NCBI GenBank assembly: GCA_029931535.1
Contig: JAQPZY010001579.1
Span: 2,160,501-2,224,500 of the forward strand
Source: Margaritifera margaritifera
Taxonomy: Eukaryota; Mollusca; Bivalvia; Unionida; Margaritiferidae
Reading direction: 5' to 3'
Length of the DNA: 64,000 bases
Within the stretch, counting starts at the first letter, position 1; every line of letters begins with the position of its first letter. The notes under the pieces are model-generated. The model did no database searches. It had not been told where the DNA came from and saw only the letters and a list, made by a program, of their open reading frames with translations. A program made the position numbers and the translations under genes. Shown one piece after another: positions 2,813 to 60,150 of this stretch.

Positions 2813-3441
2813 CAGTTGCAAAAGTGGTGCTTTTGCTCATCACTAAATCCCTGTCCTTAATTGTAATCCGAGTGGAACTAACGTCAATCCAGGCCCTTCC
2901 CGTCATCTCAGTTGTGACACTGAATATTTCAAGATATGCAGAAGTGTTTATGAGATTTACAATTACTGAGTTTTACTAAAGGCCATAGACAAGTACCACA
3001 TTAATTACATTATTGATCAATTTATTATCCATGTTTGATAGTATTAAAAATACAATAGATTACGGTGTTGGCTATTATTAATACATACTTTAATATGTAC
3101 ATGAAAGATTATTTGGTAAAACGTCTAAAGATACGTAAAAGTATTCATTAGATTTTCAACTATTATTAAGTTCTACTAAGGATCAGAGACCAGCGCCATT
3201 ATAATTACTTTATGAATCCATAAATCACCCATGTTTACAGTATTAATATTACAATATACAACAGAGGCTGCATAGATATTATTAATACATAGCTTAGTAT
3301 GTTTACTTGGTAAAGACACTATACAACCTCACAAGTTTATTGATATAAAACTCAGCTGACAATTATGTAAATACAAATAAGAACGTATTCTTGCTATTAT
3401 TATAAGAGTGCAATAAGTTTTATCCAAACCATTCCACTTAC

Positions 3442-13098: not shown

Positions 13099-13745
13099 TT
13101 ATGAAAGTGGTGAAAGTATTGGACTTCTGGGAGGTTTCCCTGGTGCGATATCAGGGGGCTCTCCAGTGTCCTTACTGTCTAGACTCCCAAATTTATTAAA
13201 GGGCTTTATAGGATCGTCAGATCCTTTGGGAAGTCTAGTAGATTCCTTAATTCTCTCCTTGTTTGGTTTAGAGTACGCATTACAACCTGCGCCAGCCGCA
13301 CTGCTGCTCTTTTGGTTGACCGGATTTAACCGGTTTCTCGGTAGGAGAGTTTGGGATCTTCTGTGGGTTGCTGCTCTTCTCGTGGGCTTGATTTTTTTAC
13401 TTTTTTCGTTTGAAGCATTCGATGTCCTAATTGGTACATTGTCACACTGACTATTTGACTTATCTACTTTGTTGTCGGTTTGAGTAGCTGCTAGCACGGG
13501 TTTTGGTGGTGTCAGGACTATGAATTTGATTTAACCTTGTGGCAATGTAATGTCTGTCTGGGTACAGACAGTATTTGTGGAAGTTTTCGTCACCACTTTA
13601 GCTGCGCTGGCGTAGGATTTGCCAGCTGTATTAAGTGGAGTTGTGGCTGTGTAACATGACATAATGGCCTTAGCCCATTACAAGCACAGCTCCATTGCCA
13701 TAATATTGTTACTGCATATTGTCCGATTTGCTCAGTCTGTCAAGG
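13099..13745 (-). pseudogene. LINE ORF1 relic, C-terminal part
   Basis: Directly upstream of ORF2 on the same strand. An open stretch of 132 codons is rich in Ser, Lys, Arg and Pro and ends 9-10 bp from the ORF2 start block. Upstream, in a shifted frame, GKSYASAAKVVTKTSTN resembles the linker seen in ORF1 proteins of I/Jockey-type LINEs. The nucleic-acid-binding N-terminus and any CCHC fingers are not visible. The copy is probably truncated or interrupted by the foldback element that starts near 13783. Confidence 0.6.
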
Positions 13746-13782
13746 CGGTGAGCATGTAAGTTCAGTGTTCATTGTAGGCACC

Positions 13783-14056
13783 TCCGTATGGTGGCCGATA
13801 TTTTCGGGTTGTCGCATTGTCGAGCGACAAAGCAACAAAGTGCCAACGCTACAAAGCAACAACCGGAAACAAATTCCGTAACATCCCCACAAAACCAGGC
13901 GACAAAGCAACAGTGTTATTTTGTCGTTTTCTCGCCTTATTTCGTCGAACTGTCGCCTGGAGTTTGTTTGGTTCTCACGTTGTTGCTTCGTCAAGTTGTA
14001 GCTTTTTTTACTTTGCGGCCCTGTCGCATTGTCGGGTTATCGTCTTCCGGTTGACA
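13783..14056. mobile_element. Left arm of outer foldback-type element
   Basis: Begins near CTCCGTATGGTGGCCGATAT and is packed with CGACAAAGCAACAAAG words and their complements. Its sequence runs colinearly with the reverse complement of 22960-23325: both contain GGCGACAAAGC(A/G)ACAGT followed by ATTTTGTC. The arms are therefore inverted repeats around a centre that now holds a SINE and a Polinton. Because each arm holds both word orientations, each can also fold on itself. No transposase is visible. Confidence 0.65.
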
Positions 14057-14302
14057 TGCGTAATGTAAGTAATTTTGGATTGCCATTTACAATTCGCTGG
14101 TATGCTCCCTTTGTACTCAACTTTGGCCGGAGCAGGAAGTGAAGCAAACTAATAATATAGCATTATTGTTTGTTCTTCTTTTCATAGAAACACTTTCATG
14201 CCCTTTCTATATGAAAGTAAATACAAAGAATGTTCCCTTAACTAATAATAAAGACATTATTTTATACCGGAGTACTTTTGCCGGTATTCCTATAGAGAGG
14301 GA

Positions 14303-14404
14303 GACGCGTCAGCGCAGTTGGTAGACCGTCGGACTCGTAATCCAACGGGTTCGATACCCGTCCAGGCCAGCCCAGGTGTGTTCTTGAAAGGCACTTAGCT
14401 CCCA
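14303..14404 (+). mobile_element. tRNA-Thr-like SINE, 5' part (split)
   Basis: A pol III A box (GTCAGCGCAGTTGGTAGA, about 14308-14325) and B box (GGTTCGATACC, 14348-14358) frame an anticodon-like loop CTCGTAA, as in tRNA-Thr(CGU). The acceptor stem does not pair, so this is a SINE head and not a tRNA gene. A TTCTTGAAAGGCACTTAG body follows. At 14404 the SINE is cut by the Polinton; its 3' tail continues at 22857. A related tail occurs in the SINE at 60040. Confidence 0.85.
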
Positions 14405-14817
14405 AGTAGTAGTATGGGGCGATATGGGTTAATGGGAATTAACATTACAGATCAAACGGGAATTTAACAGTGTCGGCGGTTAAAGGGTCAAACGGAAATG
14501 TAATGTTAAAAATGTTCATAGGTTTAACATCGTGGGCGGTTATGGGGTCAAACTGGAAATGTAATGTTAAAAATAACACTTACTATCCAATACGCCGTTT
14601 TGAGTCACCATTACCCAGTTATCTACTATCCAACACCTAGTTATCTAGTATCCAATACCCCACATTACACTATCCAAGAAGTCGTTTATAGTGACCAACA
14701 CTTAGTCGTCTACTAACCAATACCCCGCACTATACCATGAACACGCTTTTGGGAGTGACCAAGACCCCTACACTTACTAACCAACGAAAAGGGTAGGAGT
14801 GCTTACACACATTATAC

Positions 14818-14881
<64 letters not shown>

Positions 14882-15115
14882 TCATACAAGAGTATTATGA
14901 TGTTAAAAAAGGGGGATGAAAAATCACATACAAGCAAGAGTAGGAGTGTTTACATACACACTATACCCACAAACATAAGAGGGGTAAGAGGTTTAACTTT
15001 GTTTTTTTTTTTTTGTTTTTTTTTTTGCCAACTGACAAGGATATACACAAACATACAAAGACATATATTGGCGATGATTGAGTAGTATCTCTGTTTCTAA
15101 GAGAATTGGGTGGTC
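14405..15115 (+). repeat. Polinton left terminal inverted repeat
   Basis: Matches the reverse complement of 22175-22856 over about 700 bp with indels. It contains CTATCCAACAC-type subrepeats and a long CA microsatellite (14823-14878). The inner end is the shared block GTAGTATCTCTGTTTCTAAG (15081-15100). Confidence 0.9.
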
Positions 15116-16650
15116 ATGAAAAGGGCTGTTGGGTGTTGTCCTGGATCGTTGATGTTTATCTATATCCAGAACAACTACACTTCATGGGCCCGGCTCAGCA
15201 GCAAGGGCACATCTTATTCCAGTAGTCCTTTGTTCGGCGGACGGATACATTTAGCCCAAAATTATGCTCATCTGCATCCATGTCCTAATCCTCCTCTTCG
15301 GGAATCAGGGGTTGTACTGGCTATTGTTGCTGCTGCTCTTCCTGTCATACTTCTTCTGCTTCCCTTTGTCGCAGCCTCTCTTGCACCCTTTCTCATCTTC
15401 TGTTCATTAGGCACATGGCGTTGCTTAATTTTCCCGCTTGGCAGTACTAGGTTGTCAATCTTTTTTTTTTCTTAACTCTTTACAGGATCGACGATGAATC
15501 GCAAGACTGTTTGTTTGTTTGTATGAACAACGTGTTCGGCCAGTTGGCCATGTACGGCTAAACACCCTAAATGGGGATTAAGTGTGCACAGCACACTATT
15601 TGATTATTCGTCGAATGGGTTGCCGGCCTGCAACCCCATTCGACGCATTACTGCATGCACGGCATGCTTCTTAATTACATGTCAGGAGAGGCAGGCTGCA
15701 CGGACTCGGCAAGGGAGGCGCGAAGCGGAACAGAAGTACTGAAACGCCACGAACTTACATAATCAAATTCTGCCCAGTTAACTAAATGGGGCTGTCCTAA
15801 CAACCAATTATGTGTTAACCACATATTTAATTATGTCAATCCTATCAGTTCCAAATTTGCAAATTTCTTTATTTATTTTGTCATCTGAGTATACATTTTG
15901 CGTACATAGTGTACATAATTTTCCCCCCAAAAATGCGAGTCCGTGAGTACAAGTTACTCATTTCAATTTTGTATCAGGCAAACATTACTTAACTCAATGT
16001 TATATGTTTTAGACGGTGGTTCAAAACCGGTCAAATTTGTATTTTAAAAGAGTATAATCAAAAGGGGTTTTCAAAACTCCAAACGGAAAACTCTAAGCAG
16101 CCAGGAAATTTTGATCAGCTGGTCCCTGGAGACTCTCATTGGGGTGGGTCCAGTGCGACCGAAGGGTTCGACTCTCTTCATGGATCATACTGCACTCTGG
16201 GATTCAGTGTTGTCGCCAGTTTCCGCTGATCTTTTCCATCCCTCCTTCTACTCTCTTTCTCTCTCTCTCTCTCTATCTGGCCCCCGTGCTCGGTAGCTCG
16301 CCAAAGCTCGCAAGTATGGCTGCTCTTACTTGTTAATTACTTCAGGTAGCTTAATGGGGGGGGGGGGTGACTGACCACAGTCCAGCTGAAAGCACGGCAG
16401 AATAGCTTTCCTGATTTGCAGTCACCTCCACTTATTAGTTATTTATGTATGGAAGCGGAAACGGCAGATGTGTGTTCTTTGCTTCTTTTCCGTACGTCAA
16501 GAGAGTTTCCAGGTAAACTCGGTAAGGGTAAGTGTCCATGCTGCTGCTAACCAATTTGTTATTAAAGTACAAAATCAACTTCGCTGAACAACGAATGAAT
16601 GCAATTGTTAACAGAAGCTAGTCTAGAATCGGCCACTGGATTGGTGTTGT
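15116..16650. other. Polinton interior without recognisable genes
   Basis: Holds a proline/lysine-rich minus-strand stretch at 15110-15475 with stops, a GC-rich hairpin at 15610-15644, a CT run (16258-16273), a G run (about 16356) and a splice-less open stretch near 16110-16336. Probably eroded Polinton genes; none can be named. Confidence 0.4.
15610..15644. repeat. Stable GC-rich hairpin
   Basis: GTCGAATGGGTTGC and GCAACCCCATTCGAC form a 14-bp stem with one bulge around GCCGGCCT-like sequence. A smaller palindrome GCATGCACGGCATGC follows at 15652-15666. Could be a transcript end or chance within the Polinton. Confidence 0.6.
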
Positions 16651-16899
16651 CCGTTTTGAGACTTTCAGGTACAAGTAACTGTTATTCAGATCGATGTAAT
16701 ATCCGGTCTGTCCTTTGATTTCAAACTCGATAGGAGCTAAAGTGGTCAAAGACGACACGGGATGAAATTCTACCTATTGGGATTCTTGCATCGTCATCAT
16801 CGTCGATGGCATGGCAAACATATCGAGTTCTGACTTGGCACATGCATAAAAATCTCGGTGCATCATTTTTCTTTTCCTTAGTAATCAAAAACGTCAAAA

Positions 16900-17832
16900 T
16901 CTCGTTGTCGAGCTACTCTTCGGTACACAGGATACAAATATGACAATTCAGTCGAAAATCGTTTTCGAAAATGTTGTTTCACGGTGACTTTTCCTTTAGA
17001 GAATAGACTATTTAGTCCAAGATCTCCTTTTGGACTAATATTCAAACTGTCATAATACGGTTTACGATAATGAGAATGTACAAATTCTCGGTGAACGTGA
17101 TACGTGTTTCCTCCATATCGTAAGCGGCTATGGCAGAATCCACTTTGGAAGAAATGAGTCTCAGCAACGGAACAGCTGTGTTTCCTACGACGTTGTACTC
17201 GACGACATCAGAGAACACAAACATCAAATTCAGTCCCTCATTCAATTTGATAGGTTAACGAAAATACATGAAGAGTCAGTCGTTGATGTCTTTGGTGGGA
17301 ACGATAGATGTGTTTCCACCCAGAATAGCAAAAAAACTGGGATAAAAAGTGATGGATAGCGTTTTGGCCGTCGGAAAAATCCAATTTCAGACGTTAAGAA
17401 GGTGGATAGTACTCGACCAGTACACTTTGGTGGAGTTTATCCAATGCTTACCAAACTGATCGTTCAATATAGCTAAAATGGTTTCGACTCGAAATGTCGA
17501 GCATTAAAATAATATCCTGTATGAATTTTCATGGTATAGATATTCATTAGGAGATTCGCTGGTGCTATCTTGCTTGGTTTCGTAATAGAAAGGATCATTG
17601 TTATCCAAGTATTCTTGAACTTGTTCGTTGAATATTTCCACGACGAAAGTGGTTTTATATCCAACCATATTCCAGACTTGAGTGAGATGAATGATTTCTA
17701 CCAATGCCACTTTCCAATGAGCTTCGTGATCCAGTTGTATGGATTGATGTAATTTGGCTGTGAAACAACATAATTCGTTTTGGGGAAAAATATCCATATA
17801 GAACTGTCACTAGGTAATGTTAAATAAAATTG
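16900..17832 (-). pseudogene. Polinton capsid-like (minor capsid/penton type) protein relic
   Basis: The N-terminal block FYLTLPSDSS (about 17830) is followed, in a shifted frame, by FPQNELCCFTAKLHQSIQLD and WKVALVEI. A later block NLMFVFSDVVEYNVVG with TAVPLLRLI lies near 17230-17150, and KGKVTVKQHFRK near 16970. From memory these blocks match a Polinton structural protein (start FYLTLPS, then FP.NT..F.T.L, then W.VGL.EI; late VVG...VPLLR and a C-terminal V..HFR). I infer the single-jelly-roll minor capsid/penton class, but the exact class is uncertain. At least three frameshifts and several stops make it non-functional. Confidence 0.6.
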
Positions 17833-17983
17833 ATTATTCGTAGTTCGATGGTTATGGTCTCTGAGGAGTCATTCGATCTTAAAGTATGATTTTCCAAGGA
17901 GGATTCCAGAGGAATGTTGTTGTGATTGGAAGAGTTGTGACTGGCTTTGGTCAGGCTACCGTTGTTGTTACTGTTAGCTTATT

Positions 17984-18136
17984 TCAACGAAGGACTGGGA
18001 AGAAGATAACCAATACAACTGCTAAGTAAATAGTCCACAATTGTTTATCCCCTTCTTGACAACTCAAATTTCTTATAGCTGATCCAATAACACAATTCAC
18101 CACACAGATTTGCAGAAAAAGACTAATTAATTTTTA
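17984..18136 (-). CDS. Small hydrophobic ORF fragment in Polinton
   Basis: A minus-strand frame without an obvious ATG ends in a predicted membrane helix, LWTIYLAVVLVIFFPVL, followed by Arg and a stop. It lies between the integrase tail and the capsid-like relic. Polintons often carry small membrane proteins, but I cannot assign this one. Confidence 0.3.
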
Positions 18137-18242
18137 GGAACACGTTCTCCACACCACACTTACAGTGATTATTTTAGTACTTCTTGGAGAGATGAACTCT
18201 GAGAATGAGATGTAGTAGTGTTTAACGGCATGTTGGTGACTT

Positions 18243-18480
18243 CTATTTCTTTATATAGTCGATGACTTGTGACGATGCAATCAAAGAATCGAAACTGAGT
18301 GGATATCCTTTCCAATGGACTTTGACTTCTTGGAGTTGACGTTTGCTCACTTTACATGTTCTTCGACCACAAATGATTTCGATATCGTACACGTCGTCTT
18401 CTTTCTTAGTCACTTGTAACTCAGGCAAGTAAAAAGTTGCTTTTAACACTTCTCTGTTCATGTCTTCCAATTTTGACAGG
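18243..18480 (-). pseudogene. Polinton integrase C-terminus with chromodomain (fragment)
   Basis: Encodes VLKATFYLPELQ, then VYDIEIICGRR, then EVKVHWKGYPLSFDSLI. The run GTFY..ELQ...DDVY.IEK...R, then V.WKGYP..F.SW, is the tail and chromodomain typical of Polinton/Maverick integrases (family knowledge). The chromodomain normally guides integration by binding chromatin. The catalytic rve core is absent; the sequence upstream is polymerase B instead, so the gene was cut by a deletion. The usual final Trp of SW is Leu here. Confidence 0.7.
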
Positions 18481-18484
18481 TGAG

Positions 18485-20890
18485 TCTTGACTTTCTAAAC
18501 TCTGGTGTCGTTGGTAGGTTTTTGTCGTACGACTCTTCCATGCTGGACACTGTGAAAGGATTTTCAGATCTTGTTGAGGAAAACAAGCAAGGCATCCATG
18601 AAATAAACATCCCTGAAATTCGTACACGATCTGTGGGTTTTCTAAATCTCAGCCATTCACGGAATAAGATTCAATCTTCTTTTCTCCACTGTTTCTTGTA
18701 TGTTGTATCCACTGGTCTTGAGTTTCACACAAGTAATGTAACCAACGCACAGCTTTGGGTGAATATTGACGCCTGACAGATTGACAGGATTGAGATGGTA
18801 TGATGGCTAGTTTGTTTTTAAGCATACACTTCTTTCGGAACACTAATCCGCACACTTTGGCAACGGTAGAAGCTTCCTTAAAGGGATCGAGACCTACGTG
18901 ATGCATAAATAATTGTAGAAATTTTCCACAACAACGTCGTAAAATGTCCACATCTGATCGACAATATTTTAACATTTCTCTTTGAAAATCAAAAGGGTCT
19001 GAGGAGTGAACTGGGTACCAAGTGTAGAAAGCTTCTCGTTGTTCTGTTCGCATAGCGTCGGGGTCGTAGTCATGGGCTTCAGGCACCACGTGTTGCTTTG
19101 TTTCGGTATTGAAAAAGTGTAGAAAACACCTTTAGCCATTTCTGTCATTCCAAACGTTTTAGACATTCTACTCAAAGGCATAGCCAAATAAATCATGGAA
19201 TCTTTGAATTGTACGTTTCCTATTTTCATGTAAATGTTTTAGCTCTGTTTATGGTGACTGTTGGAAATTCTGTTTCTTGTTCTGAATAATATTTCAAAAG
19301 AAACTGTCTGTCGTATCCTGAGAAATTGTGAGCAATGACTAGCGTATTCATGACAATTCCCGTAACCATGCACCTCCTCTTCGCTCTAAGTGTCGTCAAT
19401 GGTGTCTAAAATCCACTCAGCAAAATCTGAAAGAGTACAAAAGCCACGAAATATCTTGTCACATCCTCCTGGAATCACGTCTAAATTCCGACAGTGATAA
19501 AATAAACGTTCTTGAATACATTCGTTGCAAGCGCGATGAACCGCACAAACATTTGGAATGTGAATTCCAGTGCCTTGAGAACATTCAAAAAAGATAAAAA
19601 TCCACACATTTCTTTTTCTTGTTCTTGTCGTCATTCAATAATTCCTCGGGTTCGTTGTCATATCTCTGAATGCAACATTGATGATCTAACTTGACGACTT
19701 AGTCACAAAAAAGAAATATTTTCTTTCCTGCACACACATTCAATTTTTTATTATTCGTATGAACAAGAGATCCGCAAGTGGAACACACTGCCAATAATTC
19801 GCAAGCACTTTTCTGTTGTTGGAGTTGTTTCATGAGATGTCGTTACTAACATGCTGAACTGACGAATGTTCTCTTGCAAGTAGAGCATTAATCTTTTCTT
19901 GTCCTTCAGGAATGCAAGGTCTGGATGCTAAACAGACACATCTCTCTCCACAACTAATATGTTGCTTGCGACTGTTAAATTCTTGGTCACATTTGTCGCA
20001 ATGCTAACTGTATTCGAGAAATCCTGTGATAGTAGTAATAGCATCGAATGATCTTGGTGATGATAAATATGAATGTATTTTCCGTCTGGAATATTAGGTC
20101 CTCAAAAACACGAGATCACCACGAACGACTTGAGGGTACAACTTTCAACGTATAACGAGGAGCCAACGCGTCTTTAGGGTTTGCATTTCAGGAACTTTAC
20201 ACACGGTTTCTTTCGAAATGCCTGCCTGTTCCAAAAGGAGTTCTGCTTCTCTTCGTTTTTTGGTTATGTCCGATTGTCTAATGCTATCCTGTTATCGTTT
20301 CTATTCTGCTGTATCGTTTATATCTGCGTTACTTCAAGCCATCACGATAGTACAGGCTAATTATATTTGATCTTGATGGTTGTTAATCTGGACGATACGA
20401 AGTTTGGTACGAGGAAATTAATCCACTGATAAAATATTTTTGCGTTTTCCACTTACCCTTGATGGTGAAATGTGTGTCATGTGAAGAGTGGCTTTTCCAT
20501 CGATCATGTCAAACTCATCATTGGATTGTTGGAAGCTTTGAATTTTGTCTATGATTTTTGAAGAAATAAACTAGATCCACATAGGAGATTTCAAACTGTC
20601 GTGGGTGATCAATAATCTCATATGATCTTGATCTTTAGCTTGGCACTACCGTTTCCTATAACATTGACTCCAATACATCTGTAATGAAGACATCTGCTTT
20701 CTCTGCTGGAACTTGAGACTTTAACTCTTTAAAGACTATATTGAATAAGGGCTAATTTCTGCTCCCGTTTTTATGGAGAAAAAAAATACTGATAAAGTTC
20801 ATGTCTATTTGTCTCAATGTATTATTCCAGGTACAAATTACGTCGTTGTCGCTTGGCTTCTGGTTTCTCCTTGGAAATGTGATTTTTTCA
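18485..20890 (-). pseudogene. Polinton DNA polymerase B relic (N-terminal and exonuclease region)
   Basis: Minus-strand blocks in order: an N-terminal block with FKELKSQVPAEKADVFITD (about 20720) and a later FTIKG; paired-Cys segments with HCDKCDQEFNSRKQH (about 20000) and CSTCGSLVH (about 19780); an Exo I-like FFECSQGTGIHIPNVC (about 19595), where the expected first Asp of D-x-E is missing; an Exo II-like FKDSMIYLAMPLSRMSKTFG (about 19205); an Exo III-like YCRSDVDILRRCC (about 18960); then YEFQGCLFHGC (about 18625). These are protein-primed family B polymerase blocks of Polinton type. The polymerase palm/fingers half is absent, deleted at about 18.48 kb. Several stops and frameshifts. Confidence 0.8.
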
Positions 20891-20933
20891 TGATGATTCA
20901 ACATTAAATTTGACTAGAGTACACACTCTCTCC

Positions 20934-20968
20934 CTATATATAGAGCACCACTTCTACCTAAGAGAATA
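20934..20968. promoter_or_regulatory. TATA box between divergent Polinton genes
   Basis: CCCTATATATAGAGC at 20933-20947 lies about 60 bp upstream of the plus-strand ATG at 20995 and about 45 bp upstream of the polymerase B start region on the minus strand. The palindromic core could serve both directions. Inference from position only. Confidence 0.4.
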
Positions 20969-20994
20969 CACTCATTCAGTTTCAATCTGTGAAG

Positions 20995-21309
20995 ATGGAA
21001 GAGTCACAACAGATCACACTATCACACTTCTCGTCAGAGATTTACAAAGAGTCATTCAAAAATACACTTCCAGTAAGACTTCCGACTACTCCTGTCGAGA
21101 TAAAAGTCAAGATACCTGTTAGTTCTGTTAAGAGAAAGGACATTGGGCTCCAGACTGTCCATAACATCAAAGAAAAGGAACTCCTAAGACAGGACAAAAG
21201 ATATACAAAAGTAAAACTACCTGTTATCGATGTCAAGAAAAAGGACATTGGTCTTCATAGTGTCCTAAAAAAAAAAAAAAAAAAAAGGAGGAGCGTTCAG
21301 AAGAAATAG
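20995..21309 (+). CDS. Lysine-rich Polinton ORF, unknown function
   Basis: Start chosen at the ATG after CTGTGAAG; the longer frame would need GTG. The product of about 104 residues has imperfect internal repeats: VSSVKRKDIGLQTV and VIDVKKKDIGLHSV. It ends in poly-Lys from an A20 run, which may have shifted the frame; downstream the words PVKKFKKA and PVKKFQK recur in another frame. It may be a basic DNA-binding virion-type protein, but I recognise no family. Confidence 0.35.
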   Translation: MEESQQITLSHFSSEIYKESFKNTLPVRLPTTPVEIKVKIPVSSVKRKDIGLQTVHNIKEKELLRQDKRYTKVKLPVIDVKKKDIGLHSVLKKKKKKRRSVQKK

Positions 21310-21470
21310 AATAAGAACCCATTCCAGTAAAGAAATTCAAAAAAGCAAGACAAGCAGAAGAAACAGCGGAAGAATCCATGCCAGTTAAGAAATTCCAAAA
21401 ATAAAGTTGGTAAAAGAATAAGAATAACAAAATAGACTTTCGTGATGTGTTTTAAAATTTTATTGTGATT

Positions 21471-21794
21471 CTATTCGCAAGTATATACCAAAAACGTAAA
21501 TGTCTCTTTGTCTTGATTTTGTTTTAAAGTATGGATAATATAACATGTACACGCATATTTTATAATAGAAGGATTTGCTTTATCTTTGATTTGGTAATCA
21601 TTAAATACTATTAGTATCTCTTTTCTAAGATAATTCGGCGATGGAAAAGGAGAAAGTGGTACAGGCCAAAACTCTTGCGAAGAAGATAAGAAATCGCAAA
21701 TTGCCAAATTGAAGTCATTCTCCTCTGGAATAATAGTTGCTACAGCAGCAGTAGTCATACTATCACTCCGAGCATGCGCACCCCATTGCAACAT
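21471..21794 (-). CDS. Unassigned Polinton ORF
   Basis: A 107-codon minus-strand open frame begins MLQWGAHARSDSMTTAAVAT and has an acidic/hydrophobic middle. No recognised domain or membrane helix. Position near the right TIR suggests a Polinton gene; it may be truncated. Confidence 0.3.
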   Translation of the reverse strand: MLQWGAHARSDSMTTAAVATIIPEENDFNLAICDFLSSSQEFWPVPLSPFPSPNYLRKEILIVFNDYQIKDKANPSIIKYACTCYIIHTLKQNQDKETFTFLVYTCE

Positions 21795-22174
21795 TTATTC
21801 AGCCATGTGTATTGTACTTGAGCAATGGTAAATCAGTTATTCAACCATGCGTAGTGTACTTGAGCTATCGAAATCGTAGGAACGCTCGTGTTCTGATTGT
21901 TGGAATCTCCCAATCAGTTTCAATCCGGTCCTAGATTATATCTAAAGGCGCGTTGGCCTATTGTGTCGCCTATTCTCAAGCGTGGAGTAATCGACTATTG
22001 TTTCAAGTATGCTCTTCAATCCAGACTACCCAGTGTATGTCAAGGCAAATTGGGCGATCACGAAGATTACAGACACGGCTATTTGGAAGAGAAAGGATGC
22101 CTCAAGAGAGTATTTAGTCTATGAACCGGCCGTAAGGAGAAGTTTGCAGAGAAAAACGGTGAAGCGGTGCCATT

Positions 22175-22856
22175 CAGGGCTACCCAATTCTCTTAGAAAC
22201 AGAGATACTACTCAGTCATTGGCTATATGTGTGTTTGTATGTTTGTGTGTCTTTGTCTGTTCAAATTTTTTTTTTTAACTCTTTACCCATTTTGTGTTTG
22301 TGGATATAGTGTGCATATGAACACTACTACCCTTCTTGCTTGTGTGTGACAGTGTGCGATTTCATCCCCCTTTAAACATCCTACCCCTCTTGTGTGTGTG
22401 TGTGTGTGTGTGTGTAAGTATAATGTGTGTATGCACTCCGACCCTTTTCGTTGGTTATTAAGTGTAGGGGTCTTGGTCACACCCAACGGCGTGCTGATTG
22501 TATAGTGTGGGGTATTGGATAGTAGATTACTAAAGTGTTGGTCACTACGAACGACGTTTTGGATAGTACAATCTGGGTGTTGGATTGTAGATAACTAAGT
22601 GTTGGATAGGAGATAACTAACTTTTGGATAGTAGAAAACAAAGTGTTGGATAGTAGATATATAGTAGATAACTGGGTAAAGGTCACTCTAAACAGCATAC
22701 TGGATAGCAAGTGTTGTTTTAGCATTACATTTCCCGTTCGACCACTTAACGGCCCACAATGTTAAATTCCCGTTTGATCCTATAACGGCCCCCACATGTT
22801 AATCTACGGCGTAATGTTAATTCCCGTGAGACCCCATATCGTCCGATACCACTACA
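22175..22856 (-). repeat. Polinton right terminal inverted repeat
   Basis: Reverse complement of the left TIR. It shares the inner block (22195-22214), the GT microsatellite (22391-22415), the TTGGATAGTAGATAAC subrepeats (22510-22680) and the outer GGGAATTAACATTA block. Confidence 0.9.
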
Positions 22857-22910
22857 CTCCCATTTTCTTGGCACGATATAGCCAATAATGTAAAAACCAA
22901 CAAAACCAGT
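22857..22910 (+). mobile_element. SINE 3' tail beyond the Polinton
   Basis: After the duplicated CTCCCA the SINE resumes with TTTTCTTGGCACGATATAGC and then CCAATAATGTAAAAACCAAC. The uninterrupted relative at 60071-60145 shows the same order: CCCATATTCTCAGCATGATA followed by TTGCCAATAATGT. Confidence 0.8.
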
Positions 22911-22959
22911 CATACAGGGAAATACATTGTAATAACGATTTGGTTAAACCATGACAGGT

Positions 22960-23325
22960 TATATGAAATGCGCAGGTCAAAAAAAGACGACGCAACAAAG
23001 CGCCAACGCAACAAAGCAAAAAAGCGTCAAGACAACAAAGCGCCAATGCGACAAAGGGTCAACGCCGCGACAACCCGATAAAATCAAGGCGCGAAAGCAG
23101 GAACACAACAAGGTGTCAGATCAACAACGCGCAAAACGACAGCCCGACAAGATCAAGGCATGAAAGCGACAAAATAGAGCACCAACGTGACAAAATTATA
23201 CTGTCGCTTTGTCGCCCAAGTTTAGTTAGGGTCTCGCTTTGACGCGTTATTTTGTTTGGTTGTCGATTTCTCGCCACGACAGTTCGATAATGCGACATGG
23301 CAGATACCAGCCACCATATTACGGG
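22960..23325. mobile_element. Right arm of outer foldback-type element
   Basis: CGACAAAG/CAACAAAGCGCCAACG words on both strands. The outer end reads CCACCATATTACGGGGG, which mirrors the left end CTCCGTATGGTGGC. Somewhat longer than the left arm because of extra subrepeats. Target duplication not resolved. Confidence 0.62.
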
Positions 23326-55300: not shown

Positions 55301-58300
55301 TTGATGAGCCTTATATATGTTAGCTTCAGGATCCAACCTGGAACAACAGAGGTGAATATACACAAACCAGGCCTCAGGAAAAGCACTCATCCACACCGGG
55401 TAAAAATTGGCTGGGTCGAGTAAAACTTTATTAATACTTGTCCCTGGGCTCAGTAGACGCACACCTTGCGAATAAAGTTTAATGCATTTTCTACCCTTAA
55501 CAAGCACCAAAATTCAACATTACTTAGCATTTGGCGTGTGTCAGTTATAAATAACTTATGCCTAATCTGCTTGCTTGTTGTCACTCTAGAACATGTTGCA
55601 AAGAAAATTACTTCGTTTTTTTCTTTCTTGTTTTTTTTTTGTACACAGGTCCATAATGTAAGCGTGATACTAAAATGGGTAAATATTACGAACATATTAT
55701 GTTGCAGTTTTACACTTAGCCTTTGATTTCTTATTGGTGTTTGCATTTACAGTTACACTTTTAAATAATTTAGGTGTCATTTTGATGTGGAGAAAGTTTC
55801 CATTTCAATAAGCTATTACTCATCTTTATGAGTCAGACCTCTTAGAAGCTAAGAGACAAAGAATGTCAAAATTTGTGTCATTTTTCATCTGGTCAGGCAA
55901 TGTTACAGCTGCCGTAGGTCACCAGTATTTTCCAGACAGAAGCTGTATTGATACATTGTCATGCCAAAGCGAAGATGCCAGGAGATATTTCTATAAGCAT
56001 GTGATTACCTTTCACAAGAAAAATTTTGCCAATTTAAATACAAAGTGAGTATTTTTTTACATGTCTCAGCCGATTCCCACCAACTTTCACACAATGCATG
56101 CTGTTGTAATCTATTTATAAAGCAGATAATGTCGTAACAACAGCTGATTGGTTGAAATCTAGTTGGAGTAATGACCTAGAAATGTTCCAGTTCTTTCGGC
56201 CAATCAGCAATCTTCCTTTTTATGGTGCCTGTGTGTAGCTCTCTAGAACTGAGGTTTGACCAAAATGGAATTCTTCTTTCAAATGCAAGTTACTGACATT
56301 TGTGTTGTGAAAAGTAATTGCATACTTACATAAATATATGCTGGCATCTTTCCTTTGGCATGAGAGTGTAGTAATAAAGCCACACAGTTTTGAAAACACT
56401 AGTGATCTGATGCAATCATAACAATGTCTGACCAGATGAAAATCATACAATTTTGACATTGTCTCTTAACTTCTCTGATATATAACTCATAAAGATGTGT
56501 GATAGCTCATTGAAAAGGAAACTTATGACACCTAGAATACTGAAAGATTACACTGTAAATGCGAATACCACTACGAAATCAAGGGCTATAGGCAGCACTC
56601 TCCAGTTTCATACTTTGCAATGGGTTCGATTTTTAAAGAAAAAGAATTTCCATGGGTTTCCTCACTGGCTATTTAAAAAAGACCTTGTATATCTTGGGTA
56701 TTCTTAAAAGAACTTTTAATTCCCTTTATTTTGGTGTATGATTGATGGGTGGAATTTGGGTTATAGAGCATACAGCTTGGTCTTACTTAAGATGTGCACC
56801 TATCAAAAAAACTGCTAGTTCCGCTTAATCATTTTCAATTCCTGGATTTCACTGATAAAAAAAGAGTCGATAACTTTTTTTACTTTTTATATATTTTGTA
56901 ATTCATTCATTGTACTTTCAGAGGCTGGTGTTGCCTACTCTGGACAAAATTTCTTTCGCTATTTTAATAACTGCTGAAAAAAGTATACTTTTCACTAATT
57001 CAGGCTGATTTTTTTTAGTACTTTGGAGTGGCCATTTCTGTCTACTGTGTGCTTAGATCATGTACAATTTCAACAAGTACAATATGTAAAGAAATTTCTG
57101 CTACAGTACATGAAAGTAGCATAGAGGTATGCCAACATTCTCTTCATTGTGCATGTTGCAAATGCAAACAACTTCACCTCACAACTATCACTCTCTCAGA
57201 AGTACATAATATCTGTAGAGTGCCCCCTTATGTGCAACTGCAATTTCTCGAGTTACAAACCTTGTATCTTATTATATGTTTATCTAATGAGCCATGTATT
57301 AGAACATAATATCTTCATGATTTTTACCCATTTTAGTATCAAGCTTGCATCAGGTACCTGTGGTTCTTTAGAAAAACCATAAGCAGTGTAGTGGAGAAGT
57401 GTACTGTGTTGAGTACAGTGAAGACTGGGATGAGTAACTCTTGCAACTCACTCATCCCAGAGATGCATGCTTGGGACATTTTTTCCTAAGCCCTTATAAA
57501 AACTGAATATGTCACCACTTTACAATCCAGGCTCTAAACAGAGTTTAACCTTTCTAATCAGACTGAACTATTTCTGGTTCATTCTAGTTCTGTACTGAAC
57601 TGTAACCCATTTGTTTGGAGAATTGCCTGAGAATTATTGCTGGTACAGTGTAGAGTCAAGTCTTTTTTTAATTAAAACTAAGTCTTAAGCAAGAAATGTC
57701 ATAACCATCCCAACAAGTGCTCCAATTGTTAATAATAAGCTGTCAAGCATTCATTGTTTTGCTTGCATAAATCAATATCACCTTTATGTCTAATCTAGGC
57801 ATGTCATAAGATTTTATTTCTGAGGGTTTATCATTTCTGACTAGCTGTGAGTCAATAGAAATTATCAACATTCCACTATCACAGAAACAAAACTCAGCTC
57901 AACATTTCAAATATGATTTTGTCATACAAAATTCAAGCAGATTTTTTATATGAAAAAAAATGGATCAGCTGCCTCACACCCACCCTCCTTGCAGAACAAT
58001 AAAAAAAGAACTTTCTCTTAAAGATACCTGTCCTTGTCCTGGATGAATAAGAACTCAAGAGATTGATTAAGCTTAGTGCAATTTTTTTTTTTTTATTAAA
58101 CTACTGAAAATGATTATTCTAATAATGAAAAAATGTCTAGAATAGTAAATTTATGGCACATACTGGTATGTCATCAAAAACCTGAGCTTATAGTTATATT
58201 AGTTTCACTCTTGATTATGAACCCTTGATTAATTACCTTGAATTCCACTGCTGTGAACAATACTCCCCTTCTTTTGGGATTCAAGCCATCATGTGGCTTT

Positions 58301-58518
58301 ACATGGGCCCATTTGAAGGTTATGTAGTCTCCAGGGTCACGCCAGCCAGTTTGGAATATGCCAATCCAGTCTCCTTCCAAGGGCATCAAATCCTGCCCGA
58401 GGGTATAGATGGCTGCCACATTCCTTCCCCAGGGGTAAGAGTTTGGTATGTTTTCAAAAAGTACTAGATCAAGCAGTGGATTGATAGCATCAATATCAAA
58501 GTCAAAATTATCGGACAT
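31075..58518 (-). CDS. CALCOCO-like: SKICH/coiled-coil/zinc-finger autophagy receptor of the TAX1BP1-CALCOCO family
   Basis: Minus-strand gene. Coding exons: 58518-58237, 55148-54959, 54144-53846, 47212-46961, 45052-44912, 43666-43540, 38047-37964, 35250-35223 (tentative), 35128-34963, 32973-32830, 31350-31075. The phases join into one frame of about 662 codons. The N-terminal SKICH domain is clear: VLFENIPNSYPWGRNVAAIY, DWIGIFQTGW, DYITFKWA, then YQFLYLSDGDNIVGVSTPFR. The middle is coiled-coil rich. The C-terminus holds one finger, CPTCKLRFPAK ending EEHLVFH (C2H2, UBZ-like). In vertebrates such proteins (TAX1BP1, NDP52, CALCOCO1) bind ubiquitinated cargo and LC3; human lengths are about 790, 446 and 691 residues. 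Which paralogue this is cannot be decided. Function is inferred from architecture. Confidence 0.88.
31852..32014. mobile_element. MITE with CCTCA-TTTCAC ends
   Basis: Left end CCTCAATTTCACAAACATAA pairs with right end TTGTTGGTGAAACTGAGG. TTAAGTC/TTAAGACA words repeat inside in inverted order. About 163 bp, in the 3'-most intron. Confidence 0.65.
32830..32973 (-). CDS. Coiled-coil coding exon
   Basis: Acceptor CTTTACTGCAG, donor ACAG/GTTATTG. 48 codons, phase 0-0. Encodes CVKQIEQLNVQLKSILQNRA with heptad-like hydrophobics. Confidence 0.85.
33098..33165. repeat. Short tandem repeat, about 33-bp unit
   Basis: Two adjacent copies of CTCTTCATTATAACATGGTT followed by CCTGTTA. Another small two-copy repeat, AACAATTCTGCCATCCCCAA, lies near 33950. 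Confidence 0.75.
33330..34960. other. Intron sequence, nothing further recognised
   Basis: Intron between the exons at 34963 and 32973. No transposon boundaries seen. Confidence 0.4.
34963..35128 (-). CDS. Coiled-coil coding exon
   Basis: Donor CTGCAG/GTATGTG. Encodes LLSSLANQGRLIDSLRQNLK and THYKGQADKLRKQLQ. The start is uncertain: acceptor AAAAAAG at 35128 fits the frame if the 28-nt exon below is used; acceptor TTTAAAAG at 35136 would fit only with a phase-0 predecessor. Both acceptors are purine-rich. Confidence 0.75.
35223..35250 (-). CDS. Candidate 28-nt microexon
   Basis: Bounded by AATTTACACAG and CTCAG/GTATTA on the minus strand. Encodes DNNLFTPQL plus part codons. Included because it is the only short segment I found that restores frame between 37964 and 35128. 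Evidence is phase logic only. Confidence 0.35.
35960..36620. repeat. Degenerate tandem repeat, about 170-bp unit, four copies
   Basis: Units share GTCTTAGCTTCATAATGAT and TTTAGGAAATATA(A/T)GCAAAT blocks and a GACTGTGACCTTAATCCC-type block. Old, intronic, non-coding. Confidence 0.75.
36752..37619. mobile_element. Hairpin-ended MITE interrupted by a 649-bp element
   Basis: Outer inverted ends ATACTCACGTATAAGTCGAT and, reversed from the right, ATACTCGCGTATAACTCGAT. Just inside each end is a long hairpin: CATAGACCCAGATCTGCC with GGCAGATCTGGGTCTATG at left, CATAGACCCTGATCTGC with ATATCAGGGTCTATG at right. The intact counterpart at 39798-40007 lacks the central segment 36841-37489. Confidence 0.82.
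36841..37489. mobile_element. 649-bp non-autonomous element with GCGCTCT ends
   Basis: Ends GGGGCGCTCTACAG and, from the right, GTGGCGCTCTCCAG are imperfect 14-bp inverted repeats. Flanked by CTATG at 36836-36840 and 37490-37494; the empty MITE at 39798-40007 has a single copy there. A full copy in opposite orientation lies at 56591-57226 and a partial one at 7868-8165. Carries a short Cys-rich open frame (minus strand, 37018-36836) but no transposase. Confidence 0.8.
37964..38047 (-). CDS. Coding exon, helical segment
   Basis: Acceptor CTTGTTACAG, donor AACAG/GTATAC, phase 1-1. Encodes KEQIKLYDAVRKLSEKDGWF. Confidence 0.82.
38048..39797. other. Intron sequence without defined elements
   Basis: A G9 run (38829-38837), ATG/ATA trinucleotide-rich stretch (39255-39370) and paired CTGGAGACAAAT words near 39020 and 39095 are the only structure seen. 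Confidence 0.4.
39798..40007. mobile_element. Intact hairpin-ended MITE
   Basis: About 210 bp with ends GTATATACTTGTGTATAAGC and GGCTTATACACGGTATATG. It contains two successive hairpins, CATAGACCCTGATCTGCC...AGCAGATCAGGGGCTATG and CACCCAGATCTGCC...CAGATCTGGGTCTATG, joined by ACTGATTAGTCCTTACAAAC. It is the uninterrupted form of 36752-37619, in reverse orientation. Confidence 0.85.
40714..42742. repeat. Intronic 75-bp minisatellite, about 27 copies
   Basis: Unit contains ACATGTAGGAGATTACACAT, GACATCTTCAGCTTACAGTG and TAAAATGGAAATGGAAAAGG then ACCAGCTGTC. Copies vary by substitution and by loss of the ACTTACATGTAGG segment (shorter units with CACATGTAGAAG). Open frames across single units are interrupted, so it is not coding. 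Confidence 0.96.
42743..43358. other. Intron sequence
   Basis: Shows a loose series of ATTCC(A/T)(G/C)-rich words (43085-43350, for example TTCCAGGTGAATTCCACC and TTCCAGCTTGATCCCACC) that suggests an old degenerate repeat with about 25-40 bp spacing. No gene. Confidence 0.45.
43359..43509. mobile_element. MITE, TCATAAAACTTT family, copy 1
   Basis: Left GTCATCAAACTTTGCTTGAC pairs with right TCAATAAAGTTTTATGATGG. Inner arms GACTCCAAATCTATTCTGGC / GATTTGGAGTAA. Related copy at 61706-61867. Confidence 0.65.
43540..43666 (-). CDS. Coding exon
   Basis: Acceptor GTTATTTCAG, donor GGATG/GTGAGTT, phase 0-1. Encodes KVQTAKDLACKQVDVAVNAP and IESIIFSFQERGFTALVKED. Confidence 0.85.
43670..44905. other. 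Intron sequence, nothing recognised
   Basis: No element boundaries or repeats that I can support. Confidence 0.4.
44912..45052 (-). CDS. Coiled-coil coding exon
   Basis: Acceptor TTTACTAGCAG is a NAGNAG site (CTAG or CTAGCAG), so the first Gln may be optional. Donor AACAG/GTATGA. Encodes EVNTEMTFLESCLCQSHMDN and QTKISKLEATAVAQSIHKQ. Phase 0-0. Confidence 0.83.
45056..46355. other. Intron sequence, nothing recognised
   Basis: AT-rich with a proline-free AAAACC-rich stretch near 45117-45330; no element or gene identified. Confidence 0.4.
46362..46885. repeat. Intronic tandem repeat, about 73-bp unit, seven copies
   Basis: Unit has AGATGGCACAGCTGGCATAA, AAAGGGTTATGTCAGGACTA and TGGGTAATACATTATTGCCC then CTCCATAAA. 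Long plus-strand frames through it reflect a unit length near a multiple of three and not a gene. Confidence 0.93.
46961..47212 (-). CDS. Coding exon, coiled-coil start
   Basis: Acceptor GTCTCACTTAG, donor AATCAG/GTAGTT, phase 0-0, 84 codons. Encodes TICPNCNMAKSLVQLLLRHL and EETHRKIHTAEKDLSTLDKT. CPNC is a lone Cys pair with no visible partner. Confidence 0.83.
47406..47516. repeat. Near-perfect palindrome with 44-bp arms
   Basis: Arms AAAAATGTGACTTATGCATT...GAAATGTGAAGC and their complement, with about one mismatch around a 23-bp loop. Young-looking palindromic MITE or a hairpin-forming element, intronic. Confidence 0.88.
47530..48690. other. Intron sequence, nothing recognised
   Basis: Two similar segments near 48320-48410 and 48490-48570 share CTTTGTAACTTGAACTCCACC-like and GATGACAAAGATTTCA-like words. 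No gene. Confidence 0.4.
48700..49130. repeat. Dispersed repeat, about 215-bp units (also 50670-50990)
   Basis: Blocks like CTCTGGAAAAATGCATCAGA, GCCAAGTTTCA(A/G)G(G/T)CA and TGCACACAAAAGAATTATCA recur at about 48700, 48920, 50690 and 50850. Looks like a molluscan-style dispersed/tandem repeat. Confidence 0.65.
49136..49262. mobile_element. Mariner-like MITE, partial copy
   Basis: AAAACCTGTCTTGAAAGACC at left and AGACCACATGTCTTGAGAGA at right; the outer right end is missing. Confidence 0.5.
49671..50662. mobile_element. Palindromic MITE split by a solo LTR
   Basis: The left end ATAAACAGAATCTCAAATGG G resumes after the LTR as TGGGTAATGATTTAATATTG. It then folds onto CAGTATTAAATCATTACCCA followed by TTTGAGATCCTTTAT. 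Without the LTR it is a palindrome of about 145 bp. Confidence 0.85.
49692..50534 (+). mobile_element. Solo LTR (843 bp)
   Basis: Begins TGTAATGGGAATG and ends CCTGTTACA, flanked by the 4-bp duplication TGGG (49688-49691 and 50535-50538). Contains a TATA box TATAAAAG (50002-50009) followed by GGTCAGCTTGGTCAGCTTGC near the expected start, and AATAAA at 50401-50406. It is antisense to the host gene. No internal retroelement genes, so it arose by LTR-LTR recombination; a 4-bp duplication fits many Gypsy elements. Confidence 0.82.
51309..52651 (-). mobile_element. hAT-like element with transposase N-terminal relic
   Basis: Left end CAGTGATCTCCCCA pairs with right end CTGGGGAGAACACTG. Near 52200-51960 on the minus strand are MNTPPSKKPKITQRP, then SGSDSDSDSVSM, then KKRRTGFTNEWKTLYPWVE. 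The last resembles the segment ahead of the BED-type finger in hAT-derived proteins. CAG-type ends also suit hAT. Flanks are CTCTG on both sides (5 bp), shorter than the usual 8-bp hAT duplication, so the superfamily is not certain. Confidence 0.6.
52660..53370. other. Intron sequence, nothing recognised
   Basis: Paired GACAG(A/T)G(A/C).CTGAAACCTTGAGATATGA-like words near 53020 and 53230 hint at an old duplication of about 200 bp. Confidence 0.4.
53372..53553. mobile_element. Mariner-like MITE, copy 2
   Basis: TACAGTCAAACCGGTCTTAA at left and TTAAGACAGGTTTGACTGTA at right form about 20-bp inverted ends including TA, as expected for Tc1/mariner-type insertion. Confidence 0.78.
53846..54144 (-). 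CDS. Coding exon after the SKICH domain
   Basis: Acceptor TGTTTTTTCTTTAG, donor AAGAAG/GTACCA, phase 1-0, 299 nt. Lys-rich start AIKIKAMKTKSIKFKKPKLT, end NQVIPVFDVAREKK. In vertebrate relatives an LC3-binding motif follows SKICH; no canonical W/F/Y-x-x-L/I/V motif with acidic lead is obvious here. Confidence 0.85.
54410..54427. repeat. Microsatellite (CT)n
   Basis: Nine CT units, intronic. Confidence 0.9.
54959..55148 (-). CDS. Coding exon, second half of SKICH domain
   Basis: Acceptor ATAAATTAG, donor ATAGAG/GTATGT, phase 0-1. Encodes PPDRKIQYQFLYLSDGDNIV then GVSTPFRVLVEHD, matching the YYQFCYV...G..ASTPFQF block of the family. Confidence 0.9.
55730..56590. mobile_element. Long imperfect inverted repeat element (arms over 200 bp)
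   Basis: Left arm words TTGATTTCTTATTGGTGTTT, GCATTTACAG, CTATTACTCATCTTTATGAG, AAGAGACAAAGAATGTCAAA and ATCTGGTCAG recur in reverse complement order down to 56590. Both arms read MSK-starting open frames only because they are copies. Probable foldback or MITE-type element. Confidence 0.72.
56591..57226. mobile_element. Second full copy of the 649-bp element, inverted
   Basis: Ends GCAGCACTCTCCAG and CTGTAGAGTGCCCC. Aligns with the reverse complement of 36841-37489 throughout. Keeps the Cys-rich frame (plus, 57055-57234). Abuts the long inverted repeat on its left. No target duplication found. Confidence 0.82.
57230..58170. other. Intron 1 sequence, nothing further recognised
   Basis: Only a short inverted word pair CTGGGATGAGTAACTC / ACTCATCCCAG near 57425-57460. 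Confidence 0.4.
58237..58518 (-). CDS. First coding exon, start of SKICH domain
   Basis: ATG at 58518, ten bases after a good acceptor (TTCTCTGTTTGCAG ends at 58529), so an untranslated exon lies upstream. Acidic leader MSDNFDFDIDAINPLLD, then the SKICH strands VLFENIPNSYP, IYTLGQDL, DWIGIFQTGWRDPGDYITF. Donor TTCAAG/GTAATT. 94 codons. Confidence 0.92.
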
Positions 58519-59042
58519 GCTAGAAGCCCTGCAAACAGAGAAGAATCATAATGTCTTAAATTATATTTTAGAAGAAGAAAAAAAGCAAAAATTTACTGTC
58601 TACAAAATTCTCAAAAGAGTATCCTGAAACAAAACCACTATTACCACAAATCATTATTACAGATTACAAAAACCATACAGACGATAACATTAAGAAAAAT
58701 AAAAAGGCAGGCCTCACCCTGCAATTTAACAGTAACATAAAACCTCATCAACAAAACATTTCTGTCACACATATCCATGTTCACACACGCACACATTACT
58801 GCAATGATATTGGGAAACGCATACTATCGATCTGTTGATTTAACCCCAACCCCACAACTGCTTACATCAAATATGTTGCTCTACCAGAATTACTTCAATT
58901 TATACTCGTTGCTTTAACTCTCTGCTTTTATTTTTAAAAAAATATTTTTTTTTACAAAATATTGCACTTTGAAGTATTTTAAGTAAGAAATGTTTGGTGT
59001 TTTGTGTTAAAAGTACAGGAGGCAACGTCACGCCAATCTTAC

Positions 59043-60039: not shown

Positions 60040-60150
60040 GGAAGCCGCGGCAGCTCAGTTCGTAGAGTACATAGCGCCCATATTCTCAGCATGATATTGC
60101 CAATAATGTGTCGAAAATGTCCTTTAATAACCAACCAACAACCAAGTCCT
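60040..60150 (+). mobile_element. tRNA-derived SINE, short or internally deleted
   Basis: A-box-like CGGCAGCTCAGTTCGTAGAG (60048-60067), B box missing, then the tail CCAATAATGTGTCGAAAATG and TTTAATAACCAACC. The tail is shared with the SINE split by the Polinton. Confidence 0.65.

Follow-up and report, generated by a model that had tools for sequence, protein, structure and literature searches.

Results

The window (the whole stretch of DNA analysed, 64,000 nt) contains a decayed and deleted Polinton/Maverick copy, rather than an autonomous element. This copy lies inside a SINE, which in turn lies inside an older dispersed repeat, here called X. The features, in window coordinates, are these:

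13648-14298, unstranded: left part of the older dispersed repeat X, which took in the SINE (genome matches, alignment to C331)
14288-14298, unstranded: left copy of the SINE's 11-bp target duplication, TCCTATAGAGA (8/11 against 22910-22920)
14299-14404, plus strand: 5' part of the SINE, ending in CTCCCA, with a head that is tRNA-like by eye (joined-flank matches)
14399-14404, unstranded: left copy of the target-site duplication (TSD), CTCCCA (exact match to right copy)
14405-15120, plus strand: left terminal inverted repeat, 716 bp, starting AGTAGT (BLASTN, ungapped blocks)
15462-16431, unstranded: stretch present also in C587 and seven further places (80-85%; genome search, query 342-1311)
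16465-16773, minus strand: stump of a structural gene in two open pieces, the remainder being lost (homologous to C505)
17045-17868, minus strand: second structural gene, in pieces (open pieces; C505 homology)
18246-18494, minus strand: chromodomain-like open piece, interpreted as the tail of the integrase gene (sub-threshold Pfam Chromo match, E 8.8e-4)
18474-18485, unstranded: scar of a ~4.0-kb deletion with ~11 filler bases (3976 bp at this place in C587)
18487-19369, minus strand: remnant of the family B DNA polymerase (PolB) with at least two frameshifts and one stop (Pfam, homologues, lesion map)
22173-22856, minus strand: right terminal inverted repeat, 684 bp, ending ACTACA (BLASTN, ungapped blocks)
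22857-22862, unstranded: right copy of the TSD, CTCCCA (exact match to left copy)
22863-22909, plus strand: 3' part of the SINE with its CCAATAATGT tail (joined-flank matches)
22910-22985, unstranded: at 22910-22920 the right-hand copy of the 11-bp SINE target duplication, with repeat X continuing (83% to C331 over 76 bases)

Boundaries and empty sites

Both boundaries of the element are fixed because the SINE runs uninterrupted through the joint in other copies. A 151-nt query made of the joined flanks matched 39 other genomic places among the 40 scored, marking the SINE as a dispersed short unit with many copies, and every listed range passes the joint. All 29 fetched copies cross it with no gap there, several of them (e.g. 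L051-L053) being near-identical and so not independent. This continuity alone gives the exact ends and the insertion into a SINE that the sequence-only reading had proposed, and it excludes that the two halves belong to different SINE families. Within the window, the SINE at 60069-60109 shares 34 of 41 bases with the joined flanks; by eye, most of the middle of that copy is missing. In L059 a gap lies about 14 bases past the joint. The host SINE resembles tRNA-derived SINEs in being a short dispersed unit with a target duplication of its own, here 11 bp and imperfect. Its head looks tRNA-like by eye, but ARAGORN calls no tRNA there, nor anywhere in the 64,000-nt window.

The element between these boundaries spans 14405-22856 (8452 bp). 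Immediately outside its two ends CTCCCA is repeated exactly (6/6), as had been claimed, while frames shifted by 1-3 bases mismatch. By our own arithmetic the chance of a 6-base repeat at the joint is ~1/4096, a figure that applies because the SINE defines the joint independently of the TSD. The published end motif of vertebrate Polintons/Mavericks is (AGT)2 // (ACT)2 or (AG)3 // (CT)3; the left end of the element (AGTAGT) fits the first form in 6/6 bases and the right end (ACTACA) in 5/6. Copy C464 likewise starts AGTAGT, where its match to element base 1 begins; inspection of the C464 right end and the C966 left end gave no usable duplication pair.

Repeat X matches 12 other places among the 40 scored, from about query position 98-109 to 727-740 of 740, at 71-79%. 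A copy on contig C331 aligns across the doubly empty site, with repeat X carrying neither SINE nor element, and reads TCCTACAGGGA there. The copies of the 11-bp duplication agree with each other in 8/11 bases and with this empty site in 9/11 and 10/11 (by eye). The comparison took its empty sites from further copies of these repeats within this genome. Such copies, which lack the insert, confirm both insertions, that of the SINE into repeat X and that of the Polinton into the SINE. The observation of a Polinton inside a SINE with a 6-bp duplication is confirmed.

Divergence of the terminal repeats

The left arm aligns with the reverse complement of the right at a BLASTN E of 1e-88 (477/687 identities, gaps included), which bears out the inverted termini of about 700 bp and excludes a lack of inverted similarity between the ends. 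Ungapped blocks of 143, 76, 61 and 60 nt are 91, 88, 79 and 87% identical, respectively. The K2P distance between the arms is 0.132 in three of the five ungapped blocks (239 sites), 0.124-0.159 in single ungapped blocks, and 0.204 over 617 aligned sites. The arm divergence of 12-18%, or 0.066-0.10 per arm, dates the insertion only if both arms were identical on arrival. At this divergence, an intact 6-bp duplication is expected with a probability of 0.31-0.46.

Gene remnants and the internal deletion

The genes inside the element are broken, as had been read from the letters: PolB carries its frameshifts and stop, and the others persist as stumps. The PolB piece has 43 homologues at E <= 0.001, the top-scoring one 46% identical across 99% of the piece; 34 of the 43 carry PF03175, and Pfam on the piece itself gives E 0.0055, below cut-off. 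A weaker alternative match, P0005, makes 19086-19454 readable in one frame with two stops. Relatives of the piece were sought in viral contigs, and none was confirmed. Homologues of a SKICH-domain exon were likewise sought, and none turned up. The lesions (at least two frameshifts and one stop in 883 bp) compare with ~6-13 expected for 870 bp at the age estimated here; for 18487-19369, and with the indel rates assumed, the count lies below the neutral-decay expectation. Differences from 23 other copies are spread nearly evenly over codon positions (662:592:673), and states peculiar to the window PolB fall 5:6:7. In a star-like tree the terminal branch of the window copy measures 0.0995, and the closest of the 23 copies lies at K2P 0.19.

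The stump at 16465-16773, which by motif we take to be the major capsid protein, is homologous to C505 up to 16465, beyond which C505 continues, so that the window element shows a further loss at its capsid end relative to C505. Pfam gave no match on this stump, and no capsid match on the C587 and C505 pieces and the window stumps. The pieces at 17045-17868 are presumably a penton-like PX, again by motif, and 16905-17762 is 79% identical to C505. The stretch at 15462-16431 is probably a separate dispersed repeat adjoining the capsid gene stump: at its seven further places no other element part is among the matches listed. In C587 its counterpart likewise lies beside the capsid stump. The first residues of the chromodomain-like open piece are already on the scar and PolB side, and in C587 the one piece that looks like integrase by eye is without a Pfam match. 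Intact Polintons carry an adenovirus-like cysteine protease. In C505 a region holds a sub-threshold match to it (Peptidase_C5, E 0.0049); blastn found no counterpart of this region in the window element except low-complexity matches, an absence expected because the copy is deleted. Intact copies also carry an FtsK-like packaging ATPase; a general Pfam scan of 18 open pieces of the element gave no ATPase match.

The ~4.0-kb deletion is the derived state: 17 of 20 fetched copies continue, as far as fetched, into the opening 95-398 bases of what the window element lacks. It removed the PolB palm and would also have taken the integrase core. No other match among the best 40 of 19655 candidates crosses the scar. 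Among the best 40 of 5664, one of 39 other places (C505) crosses the scar place, with different break points; among the best 40 of 1664, from a scan designed to favour scar-crossing copies but without the known crosser C505, none of 39 does. C505 was rejected as a sharer of the window scar on its alignment: by eye, it keeps ~30 bp lost in the window and lacks ~25 bp kept there. That its deletion ends only ~25 and 30 bp from the window's end points is an odd coincidence. The PolB tree, with short inner branches, places C505 in a clade neighbouring the window copy. A family sharing the deletion is unsupported, with no scar sharer among the best 40 of each scan (weak negative evidence).

Discussion

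The element resembles Polintons/Mavericks (polintoviruses) in its 6-bp duplication, long inverted termini and AGTAGT end, and in having a PolB remnant, next to which lie a chromodomain-like stump and those of putative structural genes; its earlier identification as a Polinton stands. Unlike them, it is without part of PolB, its integrase core and protease were not found, and its right end is one base off the motif. PMC8097293 gives 12.7-24.6 kb for intact vertebrate Polintons, against 8.45 kb here, and 46-1447 bp for their inverted termini, a range that includes the 716 and 684 bp found here; degraded copies, by the same paper, are the great majority in vertebrates. Measured against 12-25 kb for an intact copy, the 8452 bp fall short, with ~4 kb lost relative to C587.

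We propose, with a probability of about 0.83, that the locus records three nested insertions, and that an old Polinton decayed neutrally where it landed. The old dispersed repeat X received the SINE, with an 11-bp duplication. The Polinton next integrated into the SINE and duplicated CTCCCA. Both steps are legible in the sequence itself; from knowledge of the family, a retroviral-like (rve) integrase would have cut with a 6-bp stagger and a protein-primed PolB would have copied the element. Neutral decay in place would have followed, with point lesions and loss of the capsid gene end, and a ~4-kb deletion would have joined mid-PolB to the stump interpreted as the tail of the integrase. The deletions are seen against other copies; their timing we infer. 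Against in-place decay alone stands the terminal branch (0.0995), which exceeds half the clean-block arm divergence (0.066) and so allows for a degree of drift prior to insertion; a single deletion may have preceded insertion.

The sequence-only reading suggested that the copy may have come in as a deleted form, moved by proteins supplied in trans. We consider it unlikely that PolB and integrase of other copies carried such a derivative in, even though, after loss of PolB sequence and presumably the integrase core, movement would be possible only with help. The many other copies in the genome, the similar deletion of C505 in a neighbouring clade and the long terminal branch favour this course; against it, the lesions are no more than neutral decay predicts, and no scar sharer appeared among the best 40 of 19655, 5664 or 1664 candidates, a weak negative. 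More doubtful still is that derivatives without PolB palm and integrase core arise repeatedly at nearly the same place, some moving with help from fuller copies, much like defective interfering genomes. The break points of the window copy and C505 lie within ~30 bp of each other at both ends.

The same reading had called the insertion fairly recent from its intact duplication, a view to which we give almost no weight: the 6/6 identity speaks for it, but has a substantial probability even at the observed arm divergence, while the arms are 12-18% apart, the nearest PolB copy is distant and the terminal branch measures 0.0995. We see in it an apparently old copy that decayed at its insertion site. 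Scarcely credible, too, is an origin of the end segments from two different elements or a rearrangement, with the duplication due to chance. The arms are indeed unequal in length and diverged, but the SINE is continuous over the joint in 29/29 fetched copies, the outer repeat is continuous in C331, and the exact duplication comes with matching end motifs.

Read in this way, the copy is a genome fossil of the ordinary sort, though its edges are uncommonly sharp, and it leaves the view of how Polintons work unchanged. What the site offers, for one Polinton family, is ends fixed to the base, proof from empty sites and an internal clock. The family has the appearance of an old burst of similar copies, and nested sites of this kind are good material for dating such bursts.

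Results

A decayed Polinton lies inside a SINE between two copies of CTCCCA, as the sequence-only reading had proposed. The parts discussed here are:

13648-14298: left neighbour of the SINE, a dispersed repeat
14288-14298: TCCTATAGAGA, preceding the SINE
14405-22856: Polinton, 8452 bp
14405-15120 and 22173-22856: left and right terminal inverted repeats (arms)
15462-16431: stretch of ~970 bp adjoining the capsid stump
18414-18473: 60 bases of the chromodomain-like stump
18474-18485: scar of the ~4-kb deletion
18487-19369 (minus): PolB remnant
22910-22985: right side, where TCATACAGGGA follows the SINE
58174-58545 (minus): open piece with a SKICH domain

CTCCCA immediately flanks the element at either end, and frames offset by up to 3 bases give mismatches, confirming the 6-bp target duplication. 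The two termini align in inverted orientation (E 1e-88), the left one starting AGTAGT and the right one finishing ACTACA. Another copy with the same end, as the earlier reading had suggested looking for, was found on contig C464, where the sequence that matches the left terminus from its base 1 onward likewise opens with AGTAGT. In vertebrate Mavericks, the commonest end motif is (AGT)2 // (ACT)2 and duplications are 6 bp (PMC8097293); a second source gives 6-bp duplications and long inverted termini for the Maverick/Polinton order (PMC8969392). Elsewhere in the genome, C649 6135612-6152953 matches the left inverted terminus four times at intervals of ~5642 bp, which looks like a tandem array whose units each include a piece resembling a Polinton end.

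The flanks had earlier been compared with the SINE at 60040 (34/41 bases match), which by eye is without most of its middle. We joined the two flanks with one CTCCCA into a query of 151 bases and scored the best 40 of 3399 candidate places. Apart from the left part of the window copy itself, which accounts for one, these are 39 other loci whose listed ranges extend beyond the joint. All 29 of these that were excised align across the joint, gap-free there, a few being near-identical to one another and hence not independent. Thus SINE continuity alone yields both element boundaries. The nested insertion is real, and the support for its geometry is stronger than anything available to the earlier reader.

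The left neighbour of the SINE matches at least 12 other places over nearly all its length (71-79%). With a longer joined query, a copy on contig C331 runs from this neighbour directly into the sequence right of the SINE. This doubly empty site (C331:1325120-1325460; 76% over 275 columns, joint gap-free) reads TCCTACAGGGA. The SINE's own 11-bp duplication survives as two window copies now 8/11 alike. The order of insertion is repeat, SINE, Polinton. Farther along the window, the SKICH piece (Pfam E 4.5e-14) is likely a host gene exon; a homologue search with it found none.

Every gene inside the element had been called broken, and this is borne out. On the minus strand the order is a PolB remnant with at least 2 frameshifts and 1 stop, a chromodomain-like stump (Pfam E 8.8e-4, under cut-off), which we read as an integrase tail, and stumps of two structural genes. 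The PolB remnant has 43 homologues at E <= 0.001 (46% identity for the top-scoring; PF03175 in 34/43), and its own match to DNA_pol_B_2 is under cut-off (E 0.0055). The structural stumps, homologous to genes of another copy, we tentatively take from their motifs to be penton (PX) and major capsid protein; a Pfam search of them gave no match supporting either name. The rest of the capsid gene is missing, and a counterpart of the C505 region holding a protease piece was sought in the window element and none found. The ~970-bp stretch beside the capsid stump also lies beside that of the C587 copy, where fragments of it are repeated. The 60 chromodomain-stump bases are 91-97% identical at 39 other places (best of 1664 candidates); identity in the PolB part is lower, ~80%.

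The two halves of the element that abut at 18473/18485 in the window, with ~11 bases of filler by eye, are 3976 bp apart in the C587 copy. That stretch holds the next PolB part (Pfam E 4.1e-5, just under cut-off), presumably the palm from its motifs, and a piece that we took by eye for integrase, for which Pfam gives no match. The window copy therefore lost a central part of PolB and presumably also the core of the integrase. Among 20 fetched copies (L021-L040), 17 extend 95-398 bases into the start of the missing sequence, as far as fetched; two have no match there, and one (C188) matches only the far end, which is another deletion. The C464 copy matches pieces as far as ~base 3139 of 3976. 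The deletion in the window copy is derived.

Discussion

The intact duplication had been taken to suggest a fairly recent insertion. The arms differ by 12.1% (29/239 sites) when three of five ungapped blocks are pooled (11.4-14.3% in the five singly) and by 17.8% when all 617 aligned sites are counted, of which some near gaps are of doubtful alignment. The corresponding K2P values are 0.132 and 0.204. Provided that the two arms matched exactly when the element inserted, the change in each amounts to 0.066-0.10 per site. The chance that a 6-bp duplication is still unaltered at these divergences is 46% and 31%, so the intact CTCCCA is no argument for recency.

The proposal that the copy may have arrived already deleted is not supported. 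Neutral change at the arm rate predicts 2.5-3.9 stops and, with indels assumed at 0.10-0.15 per substitution, ~4-9 frameshifts in 870 bp; the PolB lesions thus show no excess that needs breakage before insertion. Among the other matches listed, none crossed the scar in a first scan (best 40 of 19655), one of 39 other places did in a second (C505; best 40 of 5664), and none of 39 did in a third (best 40 of 1664), in which C505 was absent. The C505 copy (C505:579574-579951, L014) has different break points from window 18300-18680: on the right it retains ~30 bp that are deleted from the window copy, and on the left it is missing ~25 bp that the window copy still has. The region is possibly a deletion hot spot. 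A copy sharing the window's scar may have been missed by the scans.

In a PolB-region tree of the window and 23 other copies (20 fetched, plus C505, C464 and C587), terminal branches are 0.07-0.17 and inner branches at most 0.026. The window's terminal branch is 0.0995 and the nearest copy lies at K2P 0.19; the nearest neighbour of the window copy is C464 (support 0.76), with C505 in the adjoining clade and short inner branches between. Differences between the window and the 23 copies fall 662:592:673 by codon position, and window-only states 5:6:7, a pattern close to neutral. Pairs without the window show a position-2 deficit (7296:5811:7596). Differences between the window and C505 (34:25:51) or C587 (30:27:40) fall mainly at position 3, indicating that part of the divergence is older than the decay and arguing against a strictly neutral history.

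The earlier interpretation needs revising: the element is an old Polinton that most likely decayed at its landing site, and it looks like one of a burst of similar copies. Among vertebrate copies the vast majority are degraded, according to PMC8097293. The kind is already known, and this element is an ordinary, well-documented member of it.
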